Shown here: positions 41,101 to 58,413 of the stretch, in pieces
How the letters are laid out: each line of letters begins with the position of its first letter
Position numbering within the stretch: position 1 is the first letter of the stretch
Assembly (NCBI RefSeq): GCF_020804225.1
Contig: NZ_WJBI01000018.1
Location: 8,818-72,817, forward strand
DNA length: 64,000 nt
Source: Methanosarcina sp. DH2
GTDB lineage: Archaea > Halobacteriota > Methanosarcinia > Methanosarcinales > Methanosarcinaceae
Direction of reading: 5' to 3'
Notes under the pieces: generated by a model
Database searches by the model: none
Told to the model about the DNA's origin: nothing
What the model saw: the letters and a program-made list of their open reading frames with translations, nothing else
Made by a program: the position numbers and the translations under genes

Positions 41101-41240
41101 TAAATTAGTCCTCTTGAGCGAAACGAAGTGGAGCGAAAAGGACGCGTACTCCCGAGGCGCAATTCGGGCGAGACGCAATTCGGGCGAGACGCAATTCGGG
41201 CGAGACGCAATTCGGGCGAGGCGCAATTCGGGCGCGACAG
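41101..41240 (+). repeat. Dispersed repeat element, copy 1, with 16-base tandem repeat
   Basis: A boundary segment (AATTAGTCCTCTTGAGCG, 41103-41120) is followed by a GAAGTGGAGCGAAAAGGAC part, and then by five tandem copies of GAGACGCAATTCGGGC (41154-41233). The same boundary and one or two units occur in reverse at 48163-48301. The frame through the repeat on the minus strand gives an Arg-Ile-Ala pattern with no real gene. Confidence 0.8.
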
Positions 41241-41343
41241 GAACGCTAGAAATTTTTTTTATAAATAATGATTTATTCATGTCGAATGCATATTTTTAGG
41301 AAAGAGCATTTAAGGAAAAGATTTGGGGAGGCAGGTTAAATAC

Positions 41344-42373: not shown

Positions 42374-43324
42374 GTGGCAAATCGCCATGTTAATACTTTA
42401 AACCCTGGAGACCCATTCAGGGACTGGCTTGTAGAAGAAGTTGTTGGAAATAGAATTCGCGATAAACAGTGCTATGTAAAAGTTTTTAAGTACAATTCAT
42501 CTCACACCGTCTGCAGGTACCAGTTCAAAGGAGAGCATTTCAGCGTAATGGCAAAATTTTTTGCCGAACCTACAGGGAAGCTGAAAGCATATAACTCTTA
42601 TAAAGGCATGATGAACGAGTACCGGAACCTGAAGAAAGCAGCTTCGATAATAAATGTTGCAAAGCCCCTTGCAGTAAATAAAGATTTTAATTGTGTCCTT
42701 GTTACCGAACACATACCCGGAAAATCTCTTAGCTGGCACCTTAAACGCGAAGAGAACCTTTATGAGAAACTTGCTGCGGTGGCTCACATGCTCAGGCAGC
42801 TGCATGATAATACACAGTCTTCCTACAACAAAGAAAACGAGTTCAGAAACTATCACGACGTTCTGGACCACCTGAAGCTTGACTATGACACGAGAGAGGC
42901 TTTCAACAAACTCCTTGGGGAATGGTGGTACAGTTCCTGGCTCGACAGGGAGTACGGCTGTATGGTCCACAGGGATGTTACCCCCTCCAATTATATTTTT
43001 TGCAAAGGAAAACCCTATGCACTTGATTTTGAAAGCTCCTGGTTTGAGGCACATCCTGTAAGGGACCTCGGAATTCTTACTGCAGAACTCAAGAACGAGT
43101 TTGAATTACACAAAGGTGGAGGCTGGAAAGCCGAACCGTATATAGGGAACTTTCTCTGGGAGTATAGCCACGGGGAAAAGGACTTTTTCCTAATTACCAG
43201 AATTTTGCCTTTTTTCATGGGTATAGGGCTGCTCCGTTCGGCAAGGCTCCACCAGGGCGATTACAGGAATTATCTGATAAGAGAAGCACGTGAATGTTTA
43301 GGTGCAATTAATAGAGGGAATTAA
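42374..43324 (+). CDS. APH/RIO-like kinase of unknown substrate
   Basis: A 316-residue protein with the kinase fold of aminoglycoside phosphotransferases. The catalytic loop is HRD (199-201) followed by Asn206 (HRDVTPSNYIF), and the metal Asp218 lies in DFESSW. The ATP-lysine region is about 60-62, and a RQLHDN helix lies near 141. Start is a GTG at 42374, with a GGGGGT stretch upstream. Two HAD genes follow on the same strand, so it may be involved in small-molecule phosphate metabolism. The product is clearly archaeal-type in codon use. Confidence 0.8.
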   Translation: MANRHVNTLNPGDPFRDWLVEEVVGNRIRDKQCYVKVFKYNSSHTVCRYQFKGEHFSVMAKFFAEPTGKLKAYNSYKGMMNEYRNLKKAASIINVAKPLAVNKDFNCVLVTEHIPGKSLSWHLKREENLYEKLAAVAHMLRQLHDNTQSSYNKENEFRNYHDVLDHLKLDYDTREAFNKLLGEWWYSSWLDREYGCMVHRDVTPSNYIFCKGKPYALDFESSWFEAHPVRDLGILTAELKNEFELHKGGGWKAEPYIGNFLWEYSHGEKDFFLITRILPFFMGIGLLRSARLHQGDYRNYLIREARECLGAINRGN

Positions 43325-43470
43325 GGAAGTAAAAGGGATTAAGGAACAGAAGGAATTAAGAAAATAAAGGGAATTAAGGAAATAAAGAGAATTAAGGAAA
43401 TAAAGAGAATTAAGGAAATAAAGAGAATTAAGGAAATAAAGAGAATTAAGGAAATAGAGAGAATTAAAAA
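43317..43470. repeat. 18-base tandem repeat at the end of the kinase gene
   Basis: Five close copies of GAATTAAGGAAATAAAGA (43371-43460) with degraded copies on both sides, beginning inside the last codons of the kinase gene. Every unit carries stop codons in at least one frame. Confidence 0.9.
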
Positions 43471-48162: not shown

Positions 48163-48305
48163 GCTTTGGCACCCGAATTGCGACTCGCCCGAATTCCGCT
48201 TCGGGATCACAGGAAATCGGAGATTTTCTGGGAGTTGCACTGCAAGTGCAACAGCACGCGGTCCTTTTCGCTCCGCTTCGCTGCGCTCAAGAGGACTAAT
48301 TTATA
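48163..48305 (-). repeat. Dispersed repeat element, copy 2, inverted relative to 41.1 kb
   Basis: The minus strand from about 48301 reads AATTAGTCCTCTTGAGCG and GGAGCGAAAAGGACCGCGT. It then has a private segment and GAGTCGCAATTCGGG units near 48175-48200, in the order seen at 41101-41240. Over 40 bases only about four differences are seen. It begins just after the valS stop. Confidence 0.8.
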
Positions 48306-48990: not shown

Positions 48991-49170
48991 TTAATTCGTT
49001 ACCGATGTTTTGCCTCTTACCAGCATCAGAGAAAAAGATAAGATCAGAAGTGCTGCATAAAACATTACACCGGAATCAAATCTATTATACAGGGACAGCC
49101 AGGTGTATACGAGCATTGATCCTGAAAACACTGCTAAAACTATAAGTCCGATATATTTTGCATCTACCAT
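48991..49170 (-). CDS. Small two-helix membrane protein, 59 residues
   Basis: The minus strand from ATG at 49170 encodes MVDAKYIGLIVLAVFSG, then a first hydrophobic helix to about residue 25. A loop with YNRFDSG follows, then a second helix (VMFYAALLILSFSLMLVR) and a charged tail ending in TSVTN. The stop is at 48991. The codons look normal and there are two clear membrane spans. A weak site (GTGATG) lies before the start. It lies 175 bases after the FlaX-like gene on the same strand. Function unknown. Confidence 0.65.
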   Translation of the reverse strand: MVDAKYIGLIVLAVFSGSMLVYTWLSLYNRFDSGVMFYAALLILSFSLMLVRGKTSVTN

Positions 49171-49283
49171 TTTTCATCACTCACTTTGTGTGTTATTGTA
49201 CAACTTAGTTTTGTTCTTTAAGTTTGGATCTCAGTTCAAGTACTGTAAATTTTTACCATCTTATCATAAACAGTCGAGAAATT

Positions 49284-49358
49284 ATGATTTTGAATAGATA
49301 AACTGTTGACCAGTTATAGTTTTGAATAGATAAACTGTTGATCAGTTATGATTTTGAA
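49284..49358. repeat. 32-base tandem repeat at the end of the FlaX-like gene
   Basis: Two copies of ATGATTTTGAATAGATAAAC followed by TGTTGACCAGTT, and the start of a third that runs into the last codons of the 49346 gene. The repeat probably arose from the gene end. Confidence 0.85.
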
Positions 49359-50314
49359 CCTCGCCTATATTTTCTCAGATCCCTGAGAACACATTCAAGA
49401 TCGGATTTCATCAGTTTCAGATCCAGGTCTTCCCCTTTCATATCATCCATGAAATTGATCCTTTTCTCTTTCGAAACTACGATATCATTCTTTAGTGAAG
49501 CTAATAGGCTGTCACTTTCGTCACCAAACTTTATCTCCGCAGAATTGTCGTTAAACGAGAAACTATCTTCAACAGGTTCATTGTCCAGTCCCTCAATTTT
49601 AATCTCAAATTCATTTTCATTAAACATTGAATCCTTATCAAGTGATACATCGATTTCTGAAGAGATCTCACCAAAAAACGGTTCTGCCATATTAGCTTCA
49701 AGACCATTGGTTTTTAAAGTGCCTGCAGTAGACATTTTAGTTAGAAGGTCGTCATCAAAATCTAACTCGTCTTTTTTGGATTCGACTACTTGATCAAGGT
49801 TGTTAACTTTATTAGTTAAGCCAAATTTTGAGTCTGTTTCTTCTTCATCAGATAAAGAAACAAATTTTTCATTATCATGCTTATTCCTGCGAGATAAAGT
49901 GGATGAAAGAGATGAAATTTTATTGCGTAAGTTAACAAAAAGCTTCTGAATAGCATCTTTTACTTTCAGGAATATTGTTTCCACTTTTTCAAGATTATTT
50001 TTGCTGGAGTTCTTATGGATTGAATTGGATTTTTTCTGGACTGCGCTGGATTTTTTCCGGCTTGAACCGGATTTTTTCTGGGATATGCCGCCAAGTTTTT
50101 TGCTGTACTCAGAAAAATGCTTCAAGCCCTCCGATCTTAAGGTTTTTATTTTCTGGTTCAGGTCCGAAAAAAGCTTAGCCTCTTCAAAATTAAATGAGGC
50201 TCCGCCTTTACTTTTATATCTATCGTATAGAGTTGTTGTTCCCATTACAGCCAGAGTTACAAAAATACCTATGAAGACCGTAAAATTTGTTTCGTATATG
50301 GTTTTTAAATCCAT
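49346..50314 (-). CDS. FlaX-like membrane-anchored protein, last large gene of the archaellum operon
   Basis: A 322-residue protein with one N-terminal membrane helix (about 10-28, NFTVFIGIFVTLAVMGTTTLYD). A region follows that is rich in Lys and Ser (KKSGSSRKKSSAVQKKSNS), then a helical, coiled-coil-like part (FLKVKDAIQKLFVNLRNKISS) and a long acidic tail. It follows flaJ with overlapping signals (AGGTG near 50320). The topology resembles crenarchaeal FlaX, a ring-forming scaffold of the archaellum, but sequence similarity is not evident. Euryarchaea use FlaC/D/E instead. No known family fits. Confidence 0.7.
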   Translation of the reverse strand: MDLKTIYETNFTVFIGIFVTLAVMGTTTLYDRYKSKGGASFNFEEAKLFSDLNQKIKTLRSEGLKHFSEYSKKLGGISQKKSGSSRKKSSAVQKKSNSIHKNSSKNNLEKVETIFLKVKDAIQKLFVNLRNKISSLSSTLSRRNKHDNEKFVSLSDEEETDSKFGLTNKVNNLDQVVESKKDELDFDDDLLTKMSTAGTLKTNGLEANMAEPFFGEISSEIDVSLDKDSMFNENEFEIKIEGLDNEPVEDSFSFNDNSAEIKFGDESDSLLASLKNDIVVSKEKRINFMDDMKGEDLDLKLMKSDLECVLRDLRKYRRGSKS

Positions 50315-50316
50315 AT

Positions 50317-51942
50317 TTATACACCTGCTGCTAAATTATCAAGTGCGCCATTGAATGAAAAGGCCATTTCCACTAAAGGAGGAGTTATAATCATCAGTAT
50401 CCCTGAGAGGATAAATATAGATATACCGTAATAGACTGCTAAGTACATTGGTCCCCCTTTTACAGCAACAATTGCTAATATGTTAGCAAGAGTTAGAATA
50501 ATAATTACTATTACAACAAACTGGCCAAGTAATTCGACAGGAACCCCGCCAAATATGCCTAAATTCATGCCACCCATTCCGCTGGGCATAAGATCTCCAA
50601 GTTCCCCGTTATTAGTCTCAAACTGGGCAAAAAGGGTCGATATGATAGTAGAAAAGATTGTCAGGATCTGCCCTATGAAAAGAAGAAGGGCAACCATTGC
50701 TACATGCAGAGGTATAACAAGACTGGTAAATCCTTTGGATACGCGTTCCCTTTTCATTCTTAGAAGAACCAGTTCAAGATTGGAAGAGCTCACAAGCTCT
50801 CCTACTACTCCTGCATTACCCCCGAAATTTACAGCATCTACAAAAACATTTGTAAATTTGTAGATCAAATAGCTGCCCGTCTCTCCGACAAATCTCTCCC
50901 AGCACAGTGTAGGGTCCAGCCCGGCTGCCAGTTTCTTATAGAGCTCCTGACTCATTTCTTTAAGCTCGCCAAGGTTTTTTGGATCGATCTTTATAAGCGC
51001 TTTCGGAACTGTCAGACCGGAACCACTTACAATAGATCCTAAGCTACTTATAAAAGTTGTATAACATTCATCCCTTTTGTTAATTTTATCAATATCTCTA
51101 TTTGCCGCAATTCCAACAGGCAACATAATAACTCCTGCAAGAATCATTCCGACTCCTTTAATATCAATGAAAAAATCAAATGAACCGATAAAAGCCGGTA
51201 TAATGGTAAATATTATAACAGCCAGAGCGGATAGAACAAGTGTAAGAGGCATCCACTTATGGATGTATGCCTGCTCTTTTGATTTTATGCTTAAATCGTG
51301 GACTTTAGAATCTTTAGGAGAAGATGAAAAGAGTAATCCTACCCCAAGAAAAGCCATAAAAAATATAATAAACATTGTGGAATAAAGCGTATCCGCCGGG
51401 TCACCAATATTGTATAAAATTACTGAAAGTAATATAATTATAGCTACAAGGGATGTAGAGACAAGCAATGCTGTGTAAGCGTTTGACCATTCTTTGGTGG
51501 TTTCAAGTTCTCTTTCGAACTCGTCTTTTCTTTTGGTCTTAAACAATTTCCATTCTTTGGTGAGAAATTCATTATCAGGTTCTCCTGCAGCTATAGCGTT
51601 TGATAACCTGTTAAGAAGTTCCCGCATTCTTTCGTGACTTACTTTTGTGGATATGAGTTCACATGCATTGGCGTAATCATAGTGCCAGTTCTGGGCCAGT
51701 TCTCTAATTTGACCAAAGTATTTACTTGGACAATATTCTTTCTTATCAGATATACTTGTGAATATTTTGTCTCTTGTCAGGTTGGCAGTTGAGATTGACG
51801 CCATATAAGTAAGAGAAAAAAGCAAATCATTACTCATATAGAGTTCTTTCTGGTAACTTCTGAGTTTACGAGAAAACCAGTCTAAAATGGAGTTCGAATT
51901 AGACCTTTTAGTTAAAACGTTTTTTGTTTCAGAGACTTCCAT
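50317..51942 (-). CDS. flaJ: FlaJ (ArlJ), archaellum membrane platform protein
   Basis: A multi-pass membrane protein of about 541 residues, homologous to TadC/GspF-type platforms. Two TadC-like regions with hydrophobic segments (about 145-210 and 230-280; then near 400-540) contain the conserved KALIKIDPKNLGEL and FVDAVNFGGNAGVVGEL parts. It anchors the FlaI motor in the membrane. I prefer the ATG at 51942, with GGTGAT four bases before it, over the ATG at 51954. Confidence 0.9.
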   Translation of the reverse strand: MEVSETKNVLTKRSNSNSILDWFSRKLRSYQKELYMSNDLLFSLTYMASISTANLTRDKIFTSISDKKEYCPSKYFGQIRELAQNWHYDYANACELISTKVSHERMRELLNRLSNAIAAGEPDNEFLTKEWKLFKTKRKDEFERELETTKEWSNAYTALLVSTSLVAIIILLSVILYNIGDPADTLYSTMFIIFFMAFLGVGLLFSSSPKDSKVHDLSIKSKEQAYIHKWMPLTLVLSALAVIIFTIIPAFIGSFDFFIDIKGVGMILAGVIMLPVGIAANRDIDKINKRDECYTTFISSLGSIVSGSGLTVPKALIKIDPKNLGELKEMSQELYKKLAAGLDPTLCWERFVGETGSYLIYKFTNVFVDAVNFGGNAGVVGELVSSSNLELVLLRMKRERVSKGFTSLVIPLHVAMVALLLFIGQILTIFSTIISTLFAQFETNNGELGDLMPSGMGGMNLGIFGGVPVELLGQFVVIVIIILTLANILAIVAVKGGPMYLAVYYGISIFILSGILMIITPPLVEMAFSFNGALDNLAAGV

Positions 51943-51954
51943 CCAGATCACCAT

Positions 51955-53799
51955 TTAGAATTGAATCCTCAGCATGCCATGTTTTGTAATCTTTGCGACC
52001 GTATTGAAAAAGTCGTAATAATTCACAATTCCTTCATTGCTTAATCTCTCCAGTATTTTTGCTCTTTTTTCAATTTCATCGTAAATTGCTTTCTTTTTCT
52101 TGCCAGGAATTCCAAGCCTTGTAGCGATTTTATTTTCAAGGATGTATGAACTTCCCATAGCACTGAAAATAAACGAGTCAGTAACAGGGTCCCAGGAAAA
52201 GGCTTCAATGAATGAAATTCCACCTTTATCCGGATTGTATCCGAGAACCTCATTTATACTGAGGACTCTTCTCACAAGTTTACCATCCGGTCTCCGGACC
52301 GCAGATTGGATTATGACAAAGTTAAGGTTATCCACATACGTTTTAGGAATGTTTATAGGGTCAGCTGTAAGTCTCTGGATCAATTTTTCTACGTTTGCAG
52401 CGTGGAAGGTTGACATGACAGGGTGTCCGGTCTGCATTGCCTGGAATGCTACATTTCCTTCAACGCCTCGGATCTCTCCTACGAGGATGTAATTTGGCCT
52501 CTGCCTCAATGCTGCTTTGAGGAGGTCGAACATTGTAACATCCGAACCGCTGCCTTCCCCTATTCCTCCACCCCTTGTACTTCCTCTTGTCGTTTCTCTG
52601 GTCCAGTTTTTATGAGGAATCTGCAATTCAGGTGTATCTTCAATTGAAACCAGTTTGGAATCAGGATTTATAAATGCGGTAATACCATTCAATGTAGTTG
52701 TTTTTCCACTTGCGGTTTCGCCGCAGATAAAACCGCTCATTCCTTCGGAGATCAGGATCCACAGGTAAGCTGCCATCCTGTAATCCAGGGTTCCACCTTT
52801 TATAACCTGAAGGATACTGAACGGAATGTCAGCGAATTTTCGTATGGTGAAATTACTCCCGTTTTTACTGATATCGTCACCAAAAACAATATTAATTCTT
52901 GACCCGTCCGGGAGTGTGGAGTCCACTATGGGGTTCTTGAAAGTTATGGGCTTTCCGATCCTTTCTGCAAGCCTGATGATATACTGGTTAAGTGCGTCAT
53001 TGTCATTAAATTCAATAACACTTCTCAGACCCTTGAACACCTTATGTTCAATAAAAATCGGCCCCAGACCATTGCATGTAATATCTTCAATGTGATTGTC
53101 ATGTATATAGGGGTCAAGAAACCCAACTCCGATTTTGTCCCTGAGAACTGAATATTTCAGCGCATCATACTGTTCTTTTGTCATGTACATACGATTTTTA
53201 TCAGGATCATCCTTAGATGGAAATAATCTGGACCCTAATAGTTTTTTGACACCGGAAGTAGAATTGTTAACCTGCTTTTTATTGCCTATTATGCAAATAG
53301 CATCCAGAGATTCTTTCAGTATCCTTTCTTTTTCATCCAGATTTTCAGGATCAAACTCAATCCCTGTAAGATGATCTACAAGTTTTATTTCTATTTCTTT
53401 AATGAGCCGCCCAACTCCGGTTAGAAGTATGGGCTCAATAGGAATATAGAAATCCCTTATGTCGTTTTTGTTTGGATAAATGTGCACATAGATCTGGTCG
53501 TTGACCTTGTAGATCAGATTGGGGTCCTCTATATCGCCGTGTTTTGATTCCAGCTTGGGAACATATCTGGGTATACCCATTGTGTCTATGGGCAGGATAT
53601 GAAGGTATTCCAGAAGATGAAGGTTGCTTTCAACCTCTTTTTTCATTTCCGGAGGGAGGAGCTTGTAAAGGTTGCATGTTTTAAGGTTTGAATGGTCATG
53701 CCCATCATATTTTTTTGGTTTAAACGGAAAATTGGTATATACCCCTGCATTAAGTGCACGGCCATCTTCAAGACTCAGCTTTTCTTCAATACTATCCAT
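51955..53799 (-). CDS. flaI: FlaI (ArlI), archaellum assembly and motor ATPase
   Basis: A 614-residue secretion-superfamily ATPase that powers assembly and rotation of the archaellum. The N-terminal half is the oligomerisation domain. The ATPase core has Walker A GETASGKTT, the Asp-box SIEDTPELQIPH, Walker B ILVGEIRG and the His-box MSTFHAAN. FlaI follows FlaH, its partner, and overlaps FlaJ. The length is slightly longer than most relatives. Confidence 0.93.
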   Translation of the reverse strand: MDSIEEKLSLEDGRALNAGVYTNFPFKPKKYDGHDHSNLKTCNLYKLLPPEMKKEVESNLHLLEYLHILPIDTMGIPRYVPKLESKHGDIEDPNLIYKVNDQIYVHIYPNKNDIRDFYIPIEPILLTGVGRLIKEIEIKLVDHLTGIEFDPENLDEKERILKESLDAICIIGNKKQVNNSTSGVKKLLGSRLFPSKDDPDKNRMYMTKEQYDALKYSVLRDKIGVGFLDPYIHDNHIEDITCNGLGPIFIEHKVFKGLRSVIEFNDNDALNQYIIRLAERIGKPITFKNPIVDSTLPDGSRINIVFGDDISKNGSNFTIRKFADIPFSILQVIKGGTLDYRMAAYLWILISEGMSGFICGETASGKTTTLNGITAFINPDSKLVSIEDTPELQIPHKNWTRETTRGSTRGGGIGEGSGSDVTMFDLLKAALRQRPNYILVGEIRGVEGNVAFQAMQTGHPVMSTFHAANVEKLIQRLTADPINIPKTYVDNLNFVIIQSAVRRPDGKLVRRVLSINEVLGYNPDKGGISFIEAFSWDPVTDSFIFSAMGSSYILENKIATRLGIPGKKKKAIYDEIEKRAKILERLSNEGIVNYYDFFNTVAKITKHGMLRIQF

Positions 53800-53835: not shown

Positions 53836-54552
53836 TTATACTCTGGCCTGTGATATTGGAATTATCTTTAAGCCGAATCCAGGCTGGACTTCAAAACTCA
53901 CTATATTGCCTGTGCTTTTCTTAGCCCCTCTTATTTTTGAAACTTCCATAACACTGATGTAGCGGTCAGTGAGCTGTTCTTTTCTCAGAAATAGATGACA
54001 ATCACATGAAGACCGTATTCTGACAAGTGTGTCCTCTTTGAAAGCGTGTTGATGCAAAGTGATGAAGATTGTGTACCCTTTGTCACACAAATTTTTCAAA
54101 CTTGTGAGGAATTCAAGTATATTATCCTCATCAGAGTAAGTCGTAAACATTGTGAGGGAATCAATTATAATTACTTTTTCTTTAATACTTTTAATATGAT
54201 TTGTAACAAGGTGCAGGGTTCCTTTCATTTGATCGGAAGTCCATTCGACACCTTCGAGATGAACCGGAAAAATCGTGAAATAGCCCCAGCTGTAAAAATC
54301 CGAGATATCGAGGCTCAGACTTTCCATTTGAGCCAGCATGCTCTTAACGGTATTCTCGGTTGAATAATAGGCTATCCTGTAAAGCTGATTCAATCCGCCA
54401 TACACCATTTGCTGGCAGAATACACTCTTCCCGGTATCGTTTTCGCCTTCAATGAGCACAAGAGAACCTAACGGGATGCCCTCACCTAATTTTTTATCGA
54501 TTTCATCATTGCCACTTGAAATAATGCCTTTTTTATCCTCTGTTTGTCCCAT
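53836..54552 (-). CDS. flaH: FlaH (ArlH), KaiC-like ATP-binding archaellum component
   Basis: A KaiC/RecA-fold protein of 238 residues that binds ATP and docks to FlaI and FlaX or FlaC/D/E. Walker A is GENDTGKS and Walker B is KVIIIDSLTMF. The catalytic Glu after Walker B of active RecA ATPases is absent (SLT), as in other FlaH. I take ATG 54552 (AGGTGA upstream); ATG 54570 adds six residues. Confidence 0.92.
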   Translation of the reverse strand: MGQTEDKKGIISSGNDEIDKKLGEGIPLGSLVLIEGENDTGKSVFCQQMVYGGLNQLYRIAYYSTENTVKSMLAQMESLSLDISDFYSWGYFTIFPVHLEGVEWTSDQMKGTLHLVTNHIKSIKEKVIIIDSLTMFTTYSDEDNILEFLTSLKNLCDKGYTIFITLHQHAFKEDTLVRIRSSCDCHLFLRKEQLTDRYISVMEVSKIRGAKKSTGNIVSFEVQPGFGLKIIPISQARV

Positions 54553-54553
54553 T

Positions 54554-55027
54554 TTATTCACCTGCCACATGTTCTGCGGAAGAGACGATACCGTTTTCCG
54601 TGATAATTTTTACAATAAAACTGTCATTGGATTCAAGCTCAAGTAATAATTCAATGTTAATGCTTTCATGAGGGTCCAGAATACGGGGGTTTAGAAGATC
54701 ATTATTATAGGTTATATCGTACTGAGATTCATTCAAATAAGACACCTGACCCTCTTTCACCAGGATAACATCCCATAGTCCGAAGTTACTTAATTTGGTT
54801 TCACCTGTATTTGCAACTGTGAAGCTGGTATGATTAGTTGAAACGTTAAACCGCATATTCTGTATTTCAATACTGGTTTGAAGCCTATCCATCATTGTTT
54901 GATGGGCTGAAACGTATCCGTTATAAGAAGATTCTACAAGATTATTAGCCCCCATTGTAATAGTACCTGCAACAACCAGAATCGTTCCGATCACAAAGAA
55001 CGCGACGATTATTGTATCAAGGCCCAT
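54554..55027 (-). CDS. flaF: FlaF-type archaellum periplasmic component
   Basis: From ATG 55027 the protein begins MGLDTIIVAFFVIGTILVVAGT, an N-terminal membrane helix, followed by a beta-rich domain (FNVSTNHTSFTVANTGETKLSNF, then WDVILVKEGQVSYL). FlaF proteins are anchored archaellin-like proteins that fix the filament to the S-layer. The ORF extends upstream to 55114 over the previous gene, but the extra residues are not conserved. Confidence 0.85.
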   Translation of the reverse strand: MGLDTIIVAFFVIGTILVVAGTITMGANNLVESSYNGYVSAHQTMMDRLQTSIEIQNMRFNVSTNHTSFTVANTGETKLSNFGLWDVILVKEGQVSYLNESQYDITYNNDLLNPRILDPHESINIELLLELESNDSFIVKIITENGIVSSAEHVAGE

Positions 55028-55031
55028 AATA

Positions 55032-55511
55032 TCACACCGAGAACGTGTCTGATGTTGATACCCCATTGTAAAGGAAAAAGGTAATTTTATAAATGTCACT
55101 CGGCAGGGCATCAAGCTCTATTGCTGCCTTAATAGTTTCTCCACGATTCCAGGTGTCCCCGTCCCCATTTTCAAGAGTGTATTCCCAGGATGGATTTGAA
55201 GCGGATTCAAATCCAGGATTCCAGTAGTTTGAAGAAGAAAGAATGAAGATGTCACAATATTGTAGCTGTGAAAGGGGCACATTTGATGACCCTACGTTTT
55301 TTATCCAGACGTAAACAGTACTGGTGTTTCCATCAGGGTAAATAAATATGATATCGATATCTGTTTTGAACTGATCTTCCATATTACGTGCAACGGAGCT
55401 ATAAGATTCTGATAGACCATATACAGAAGGAAGTATGGCATTAACAAAAGTCACTGCAGCTATAACACTCACTATTACGAGTATTGCTGAAGTTATGACT
55501 TCCTTTGCCAT
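55032..55511 (-). CDS. flaG: FlaG-type archaellum periplasmic component
   Basis: A 159-residue protein starting MAKEVITSAILVIVSVIAAV, an N-terminal helix of FlaG type. A beta domain with TSTVYVWIKNVGSSNVPLSQ follows. FlaG forms a filament-like subunit in the periplasm next to FlaF. The start overlaps the FlaD/E gene. It is followed by FlaF. Confidence 0.85.
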   Translation of the reverse strand: MAKEVITSAILVIVSVIAAVTFVNAILPSVYGLSESYSSVARNMEDQFKTDIDIIFIYPDGNTSTVYVWIKNVGSSNVPLSQLQYCDIFILSSSNYWNPGFESASNPSWEYTLENGDGDTWNRGETIKAAIELDALPSDIYKITFFLYNGVSTSDTFSV

Positions 55512-56194
55512 GCGTTCTTCACCGTATCATTTTCATTCAAGACATAATCCAGTACCTTTGAGTCAAGAGACAGATCATCCGGATTAAGTATATGATAAAG
55601 TCTGTACAGGTCCATTACTGCGTCATCAAGATTGTTGTTTTTGGCAAGGATCTCAATGACTCTAAGAATAATTTCCTTAATATCACCGGGAATATATCCC
55701 AGGAGAGAGAATACTTCAATTAATTCCTTTATGGCATCATGGTCATATTTCCCCACCATGTCCTTGCTCCAGACAATAGTCCTGTAAAAGGACAGGGGAT
55801 CAATAAGTTTTGAATCATTCCTTTTAGGCAGTTTCTTAACAGCCTGCCTCATATCTTCAAAAGGATTTTTTGGAATCTGCTCCATTTCCAGATCTTCATC
55901 ATCAGGTTCGTCTTCTATTATTTCTTCTTTTTTTGGCTCTTCTTTCTTACCATCATCAGCAGGTCTGGGATTTATTATGGCCCCGGAAATATTAGCAATA
56001 CCCTGAATATTCTGGAAAGGATTTTCAAGGACCCCCATCGTTTCCCTTATGTCCATAAGGAGATTTTTTATAGAGCCTTTGATCTCAGTTACCTCTTCTT
56101 CAAGATTTGCAACTTTGGATTCTATAGTATCGCTTTCAGCTGTAGCCACAATTTTATCAATTATTGACTGGTCAAAGGATTCCCCACTCATCAT
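55493..56194 (-). CDS. flaD: FlaD/E-type archaellum cytosolic component
   Basis: A 233-residue protein with an N-terminal coiled coil (IESKVANLEEEVTEIKGSIKNLLMDI), a low-complexity acidic linker, and the C-terminal domain (LSFYRTIVWSKDMVGKYDHDAIKELIEVFSLLGYIPGDI) shared by FlaC/D/E. Euryarchaeal FlaC/D/E link the Che system (via CheF) to the motor and form the ring around FlaI/FlaH. There is only one such gene in the operon. The start has GGTGAT directly upstream of ATGATG. Confidence 0.88.
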   Translation of the reverse strand: MMSGESFDQSIIDKIVATAESDTIESKVANLEEEVTEIKGSIKNLLMDIRETMGVLENPFQNIQGIANISGAIINPRPADDGKKEEPKKEEIIEDEPDDEDLEMEQIPKNPFEDMRQAVKKLPKRNDSKLIDPLSFYRTIVWSKDMVGKYDHDAIKELIEVFSLLGYIPGDIKEIILRVIEILAKNNNLDDAVMDLYRLYHILNPDDLSLDSKVLDYVLNENDTVKNAWQRKS

Positions 56195-56269: not shown

Positions 56270-56869
56270 TTAGACGAGTGTCATAATTGCACTAATCGAT
56301 GGAGGTGCCTGCCTGTGAATGGTATAGGAAGCGCCCTGAGGTGGCTTGATTTCAAGCTGGAACTCATCGTTAGGTCCTATAGATGCAGTAGCTGCAGCAG
56401 CCACAGCATCAAGATCAACTGTTATATCGAATTTTTCAGCTTTGTCTATAAGATCATCAGTATTAGCGTTATACTGGCCTGTTATAGCAAAGGTGCTTAA
56501 AGTAGCAGGAGCATCACCAAGTATCAATTCAGTTGGTGGGATATCCGGAGCGGAAACAACTATAAGAGTTTTAGCCATATCTACGGATGAACCGCCTGAA
56601 GTGAGTTGCAAGCACAAAGTGAGAGTATCAATTTTAGTAGGAGTGTCGGGATCGTCAGCTTTAGCAATCAAATCTCCACTTAATTCAACACTGCTGCTCG
56701 CCTGCTGTACACCTGTATGCACAACTTCCTGACTTTTCTGGGTTGTATAGAAACCTGCTCCGAGCATGACGTAGCTGAAGACTGCAGCCACGACCACAAA
56801 GGCCACCAGGACAATTGCTGCTTCAAGTCCAGTGAACCCTTTTTCATCTTTTACAAATTTGTTCCACAT
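56270..56869 (-). CDS. flaB2: Archaellin FlaB2
   Basis: A 199-residue filament protein with the archaeal class III signal peptide: cleavage by FlaK-type peptidase before the FTGLEAAIV segment (after DEKG), and a hydrophobic helix (FVVVAAVFSYVMLGAGF). The first 50 residues are nearly the same as FlaB1. The rest is a Thr/Ser/Asp-rich surface domain that differs. GAGGTGAT precedes the start. Confidence 0.92.
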   Translation of the reverse strand: MWNKFVKDEKGFTGLEAAIVLVAFVVVAAVFSYVMLGAGFYTTQKSQEVVHTGVQQASSSVELSGDLIAKADDPDTPTKIDTLTLCLQLTSGGSSVDMAKTLIVVSAPDIPPTELILGDAPATLSTFAITGQYNANTDDLIDKAEKFDITVDLDAVAAAATASIGPNDEFQLEIKPPQGASYTIHRQAPPSISAIMTLV

Positions 56870-56880
56870 TACAGATCACC

Positions 56881-57540
56881 TCAGTAAACCGGATAATAGT
56901 TGTCCGCGATAAGTGCAGCAGGCAATGTTCTTGAAAGAGTTAGAACTGCGCCCTCTGGGGGCTTTAACTCAATCTTGAATTGTTCATTTACAGTAGGTAA
57001 AGTCTTCTCAGTACTAGTCGAAATGAGTTGAGTCAAATCTATTACTACCTTATACTTTTCACCTTTTTCAAGCAAATTATCCTCATTGGTGGCAATCACA
57101 GTCTGATACACCCATCCATTTGTAATTGTCCAATCTGCAGGAATGGCAGCTACAGGCCCTTTAATATCAGGAAGTGGATCAGCTGGACTATTATCGGCAA
57201 CATATTCCTTTGTTACAAAATCATCGTCATCTGTATAGGTAAGAATTGTCTTATCCAGGTCTACAGCTGTTCCGCCGGCAGTGTTCGTTACATAAAATGT
57301 AATCTGACTTGCCTTACTGGCTGCAGCTCCTTTAACGATTATATCTCCTGAAGGTGCAATGCTGCTGCTTGCCTGCGTTACACCTGTGTGTACGACTTCC
57401 TGGCTTTTCTGAGTAGTATAGAACCCAGCTCCCAACATGACGTAGCTGAAAACTGCAGCTACGACGACGAAGGCTACCAGCACGATTGCTGCTTCAAGCC
57501 CCGTAAACCCTTTTTCATCTTTAATTAATCGATTCCACAT
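56881..57540 (-). CDS. flaB1: Archaellin FlaB1
   Basis: A 219-residue filament protein, the first gene of the operon. The signal peptide MWNRLIKDEKG is cut before FTGLEAAIVLVAFV. The C-terminal domain is beta-rich with many Asp and Thr. AAGGTGAT lies five bases before the ATG. FlaB1 and FlaB2 may form the core and specialised parts of the filament. Confidence 0.92.
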   Translation of the reverse strand: MWNRLIKDEKGFTGLEAAIVLVAFVVVAAVFSYVMLGAGFYTTQKSQEVVHTGVTQASSSIAPSGDIIVKGAAASKASQITFYVTNTAGGTAVDLDKTILTYTDDDDFVTKEYVADNSPADPLPDIKGPVAAIPADWTITNGWVYQTVIATNEDNLLEKGEKYKVVIDLTQLISTSTEKTLPTVNEQFKIELKPPEGAVLTLSRTLPAALIADNYYPVY

Positions 57541-57629
57541 TATAAATCACCTTAATATAGTGTGACTATTATAACAGTAAATAGAATATCAGTTAATATT
57601 ATAAATGTTTCGGCTGTTAGAGGGTTAAC

Positions 57630-57643
57630 TTTATATAAAATTT
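57630..57643 (-). promoter_or_regulatory. Likely TATA box of the archaellum operon
   Basis: The minus strand reads AAATTTTATATAAA, about 90 bases before the flaB1 start. It is the best TATA match in the region. Confidence 0.55.
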
Positions 57644-57649
57644 AAGTAA

Positions 57650-58413
<764 letters not shown>

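Follow-up and report, generated by a model that had tools for sequence, protein, structure and literature searches.

The window analysed here, a stretch of 64,000 nucleotides from Methanosarcina sp. DH2, contains an archaellum operon on its minus strand. Read along that strand, two archaellin genes (56270..57540) are followed by a gene for an ArlDE/ArlCDE protein of 233 residues (55493..56194), which occupies the FlaX/ArlCDE slot and belongs to a family of which 10 of 11 examined members match Arch_fla_DE (PF04659), by a pair of stator genes in the crenarchaeal G-F order, the first arlG-like (55032..55511; NF052591, 43.4 bits) and the second arlF-like (54554..55027; NF052590, 36.9 bits), both scoring below the cut-off, and by flaH (arlH; 53836..54570; NF052589, 238.3 bits), flaI (arlI; 51955..53799; NF058587, 712.6 bits) and flaJ (arlJ; 50317..51942; 541 residues), whose start at 51942 is supported by the in-frame stops that relatives have immediately before it. 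Two further genes come after flaJ, namely ORF322 (complement(49346..50314), 322 residues) and ORF59 (complement(48991..49170), 59 residues), beyond which valS is found on the opposite strand, convergent with ORF59. The original prediction had the coordinates, strand and lengths of both genes exactly right, and its placement of them on the archaellum strand downstream of flaJ is borne out as well, since only 2 nt separate the flaJ stop from the start of ORF322 and ORF59 lies 175 nt beyond ORF322. The gap between the two (49171..49345) has no T run of at least 5 on the coding strand, neither here nor in general (15 of 16 genomes), and such runs are found downstream of ORF59 in 10 of the 16, a pattern that would be compatible with, and is no proof of, a single transcript. 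A 32-bp unit present 2.4 times (49282-49358) spans the end of ORF322 and part of the gap toward ORF59.

Some further features of the window should also be mentioned. A region of about 870 bp (57541-58413) separates cheR from the first archaellin gene; it holds no ORF of at least 100 residues and matches no Rfam family at the gathering threshold, and relatives show a similarly long gap at this position. The HAD-valS stretch is flanked at 41101-41254 and 48164-48303 by copies of a repeat element in inverted orientation (43 nt, 93% complementary); the copy at 41101-41254 contains 5.4 copies of the 16-bp unit CGAGACGCAATTCGGG, and an 18-bp unit, AATAAAGAGAATTAAGGA, is repeated 8.8 times at 43310-43467.

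ORF322 and ORF59 are real genes, and neither product matches anything in Pfam or NCBIfam, a sequence search of the PDB likewise giving nothing useful. ORF322 encodes a single-pass membrane protein, a proposed motor-base tether, in which an N-terminal membrane helix (residues about 11-33, 50216..50284 on the minus strand) is followed by a long linker and a C-terminal module, and because basic residues follow the helix, the positive-inside rule predicts a cytoplasmic tail. Residues 38-145 of the linker are Lys/Ser-rich (pI 10.5, 25 K+R against 8 D+E, 20 Ser), residues 146-265 are acidic (pI 4.1, 33 D+E against 10 K+R), and the C-terminus (266-322) is helical and of mixed charge (pI 8.2). The predicted layout of one membrane helix, a Lys/Ser-rich part and a helical part thus stands, while the acidic tail that went with it is really an acidic middle. 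Alignment of the family reveals three conserved motifs set on a variable linker: motif A (residues 180-196, KKDELDFDDDLLTKMST, 49727..49777 on the minus strand), conserved in 17 family members, a less sharply defined motif B near residues 226-236, and motif C, the conserved C-terminal module of about 50 residues (265-315, 49370..49522 on the minus strand); the variable linker of the window copy furthermore contains a 21-nt internal repeat. An AlphaFold model of the monomer (mean pLDDT 50.6) puts residues 3-35 and 299-321 in helices, where block means reach as high as pLDDT 83, leaves most other regions below pLDDT 70 and shows no confident folded ring domain. Between 10 Methanosarcina genomes dN/dS is about 0.34. 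The N-terminal membrane helix, motifs A and C and linkage to flaJ, by which we define the family, are all found.

The distribution of ORF322 follows that of one type of motor. Among 31 Methanosarcina genomes it is present in 10, exactly the 10 with a flaJ of the type found at this locus (75-91% identity to the window copy in the nine others), and absent from the remaining 21, and a second flaJ type (about 39% identity), present in 16 Methanosarcina genomes, is not followed by ORF322. Among 81 Methanosarcinaceae genomes ORF322 is likewise found in exactly the 10 that have this flaJ type, always directly downstream of it, and not in the other 71. The naive probability of such coincidence is 2e-8 for the genus and 5e-13 for the family, figures that shared descent makes too small, and the distribution is patchy. 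A profile made from the family reached distant relatives; a closer alignment matched genome contigs of Methanosarcinaceae only, whereas out of 393 genomes in the phylum about 93 were positive with a wider profile, a count that excludes N-terminal-only matches; weak matches of that kind in one genus (g5, e.g. locus L192) were attributed to other membrane proteins and discarded. In the 20 diverse loci fetched, drawn from many families, ORF322 directly follows flaJ in all 19 that have flaJ on the contig and directly precedes cheF in 15, and in three more loci it sits directly between the two; a CheF gene adjoins ORF322 in L190. In another set of loci ORF322 is adjacent to flaJ in most, with one intervening gene in L178, and in one lineage (G232, locus L186) it is found between flaH and flaI. 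The expectation that both genes would be conserved beside flaJ in relatives is supported: their association with it is far beyond chance, and ORF322 directly follows flaJ in 10 of 10 Methanosarcinaceae and 19 of 19 further loci. From size, gene order and the literature the family f8 appears to be Archaeoglobaceae and f7, f15, f18 and f24-f26 Methanomicrobiales, and the large genomes with several CheF copies are probably haloarchaea. The phylum-wide profile search did not detect the family in the latter, and it is therefore not universal to euryarchaeal motors. Presumably the locus is also carried by Methanosarcina acetivorans (G001), an organism in which genes have been deleted.

ORF59 is under strong purifying selection (dN/dS about 0.10 in 10 Methanosarcina genomes and six relatives from other genera, third codon positions accounting for 65% of the differences), and its identity to the window copy is 72-94% across the Methanosarcinaceae. 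The two membrane helices predicted for it are recovered by AlphaFold as a hairpin (4-28 and 33-57, mean pLDDT 74). It is present in all 10 ORF322-bearing genomes of the genus and 9 of the 10 of the family, and in f8 the small form occurs together with ORF322 in 12 of the 12 genomes that have it; the f8 loci examined have it in or beside the archaellum/chemotaxis region, on the strand opposite to that of the archaellum genes whenever the contig includes both. We can describe a family that has a two-helix core of about 53 residues and is linked to archaellum or che genes. A 3' fragment is all that remains of ORF59 beside valS, and convergent with it, in G010, which lacks such a flaJ, and in G020, where the contig ends at the remnant; these remnants are scars of deletion of the locus, and ORF59 is gained and lost together with the motor that ORF322 accompanies. 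Many f8 genomes also contain, away from the archaellum, a longer paralogue of 105-132 residues with a coiled-coil tail, which makes it probable that ORF59 is a shortened relative, dedicated to the archaellum, of a membrane protein with a more general role. Examples of these longer relatives, which have two membrane helices and a coiled coil and end in IERRMYR or similar, are L182 5324-5638, L194 6033-6377 and L197 6272-6589; they are not represented in Pfam or NCBIfam. A match of ORF59 to PF16491 (best E 0.011) is below the cut-off and was taken as chance hydrophobic similarity. Beside ORF59 in f8 there is also an unnamed family of about 205-209 residues (L181 6791-7420, L184 375-992, L178 5594-6211) with the motif ..ITFPDxYSFxxxSKxISE..WLLWTDA, for which the one member scanned had no Pfam match.

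The second archaellum operon of the genus likewise has a protein without family name encoded after flaJ (L045 3061-3987, G000:C34), which is conserved in the genus (240-340 residues). It differs from ORF322 in having a Lys/Glu-rich N-terminal part and no membrane helix by hydropathy, and in full-length profile comparison the two give no signal, the relation being confined to the C-terminal module, which forms the C-terminal end of the second-operon protein as well. There, hhalign scores 35.7 with a diverse alignment, against 9.8 +/- 2.0 (maximum 16.7) for 200 column shuffles, 11.0 on reversal and 5-8 for other regions of the second-operon protein. The common position and common module suggest that the module has one docking site in both motors.

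Since ORF322 accompanies the motor in many archaea, it is probably an overlooked part of it, and we consider the chances about even that it is a hitherto unrecognised motor-base subunit of the archaellum, widely conserved in methanogens and what are probably Archaeoglobi. It is inherited with the motor genes, and the membrane helix and the module of about 50 residues are kept as the linker drifts. The helix would serve as an anchor next to the ArlJ platform, from which a long disordered linker would extend into the cytoplasm, and the C-terminal module would dock on the cytosolic ring, with ArlH/ArlI or ArlCDE as putative partners; as the structure model is of low confidence, it is conservation only that speaks for such docking. 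ORF59, as a small membrane hairpin, is probably a minor accessory subunit that acts with this motor's membrane part. The ring that ORF322 may tether is in these archaea built of ArlCDE. According to reviews, ArlCDE takes the place in euryarchaea of crenarchaeal ArlX and has no membrane helix like that of ArlX (PMC8978795), and ORF322 could be a membrane-anchored partner for the helix-less ArlCDE. On a more tentative and less probable extension of this reading, ORF322 would provide the anchor that the ArlCDE ring is missing in euryarchaeal motors with the crenarchaeal gene order, and would keep the stator or switch ring in place; ArlX of crenarchaea would then combine in a single protein the roles divided here between ArlCDE (ring) and ORF322 (anchor). 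ORF322 and ArlC/D/E are alike in that both are encoded in a euryarchaeal archaellum operon and have a proposed role at the cytosolic ring, but ORF322 matches neither FlaC_arch (PF05377) nor Arch_fla_DE (PF04659), and ArlCDE has no membrane helix and is encoded by a separate gene of the same operon. The suggestion of a mixed motor base holds insofar as the gene order G-F-H-I-J of the operon is crenarchaeal and its ArlDE euryarchaeal, and finds no support with respect to a FlaX-like scaffold; the G-F order with euryarchaeal ArlDE (fla2-type clusters) was furthermore described already in 2007 for Methanosarcina, Methanospirillum and Archaeoglobus (PMC1914349).

The frequent position directly before cheF also fits a signalling role, and ORF322 might couple CheF/CheY or the receptor complex to the motor and so fit a crenarchaeal-type motor to euryarchaeal chemotaxis. 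This notion is supported by the 15 of 20 loci, and three more, in which ORF322 lies directly between flaJ and cheF, and from the presence of CheF in 85 of the 93 ORF322 genomes. CheF is archaeal and often encoded by the neighbouring gene, but ORF322 does not match the CheF profile (PF04283) and persists where CheF or CheA is lacking: two genomes assembled as a single contig each and 98-99% complete (G141 and G232) keep ORF322 with neither CheF (PF04283) nor CheA (PF02895), as do the less complete G403 and G103, and G420 and three g3 genomes have ORF322 and CheA without a CheF match. ORF322 is therefore not only a chemotaxis adaptor, and as 75 CheF genomes show no ORF322, it tracks a type of motor and not chemotaxis. 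A role confined to chemotaxis is weakened by these genomes, and by the position between flaH and flaI in G232, and the adaptor reading is on the whole unlikely, but in view of the usual gene position ORF322 may act at the interface of motor and chemotaxis.

Alternatively ORF322 may be a factor for assembly, positioning or turnover, which brings the motor to the pole or acts as an escort of ArlJ and is not a lasting subunit. A long disordered linker with short conserved modules would be typical of tethers and escort proteins, but the tight linkage to core genes, in one lineage even inside flaH-flaI, is more usual for a structural part, and we regard this explanation as rather unlikely.

The original prediction compared ORF322 to FlaX, and a scaffold of this type would oligomerise into its own ring around ArlI/ArlH. 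A member of the ArlX family would be expected to form a ring of about 30 nm with its cytosolic domain. ORF322 resembles crenarchaeal ArlX/FlaX in being encoded in an archaellum operon and in having one N-terminal membrane helix attached to a cytosolic part (PMC8978795 for ArlX), its orientation being assigned by the positive-inside rule. However, none of 19 diverse ORF322 members gives a match at E 0.5, either to PF24151 (ArlX) or to NF058591, the FlaX model of NCBIfam, and ORF322 is located after flaJ and not between flaB and flaG, where the 233-residue ArlDE protein (55493-56194) takes the slot. Homology to FlaX is rejected by these profile scans, and a FlaX-like scaffold is likewise improbable in view of the different gene position and the slot taken by another gene, and since ArlX has a folded ring-forming domain whereas the linker of ORF322 is predicted to be disordered and its model contains no such domain with confidence. 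That both genes are mere passengers placed after flaJ by happenstance, as might be argued for ORF59, which lies 25-273 nt downstream and on the opposite strand in f8, is very improbable, being already contradicted by the exact co-occurrence and adjacency across families.

We found no description of the ORF322 gene in the literature outside supplementary arCOG tables, where an unnamed entry may exist, and the main text of the 2016 census does not mention it (PMC4858521). Although the archaellum is treated as a machine whose parts are almost all known, the gene that usually follows flaJ in methanogens has no Pfam or NCBIfam family name. If ORF322 is indeed a motor subunit, it has to be included in every model of how the motor of these archaea assembles and generates torque, and would offer an answer to the question of how a soluble ArlCDE ring stays at the membrane.
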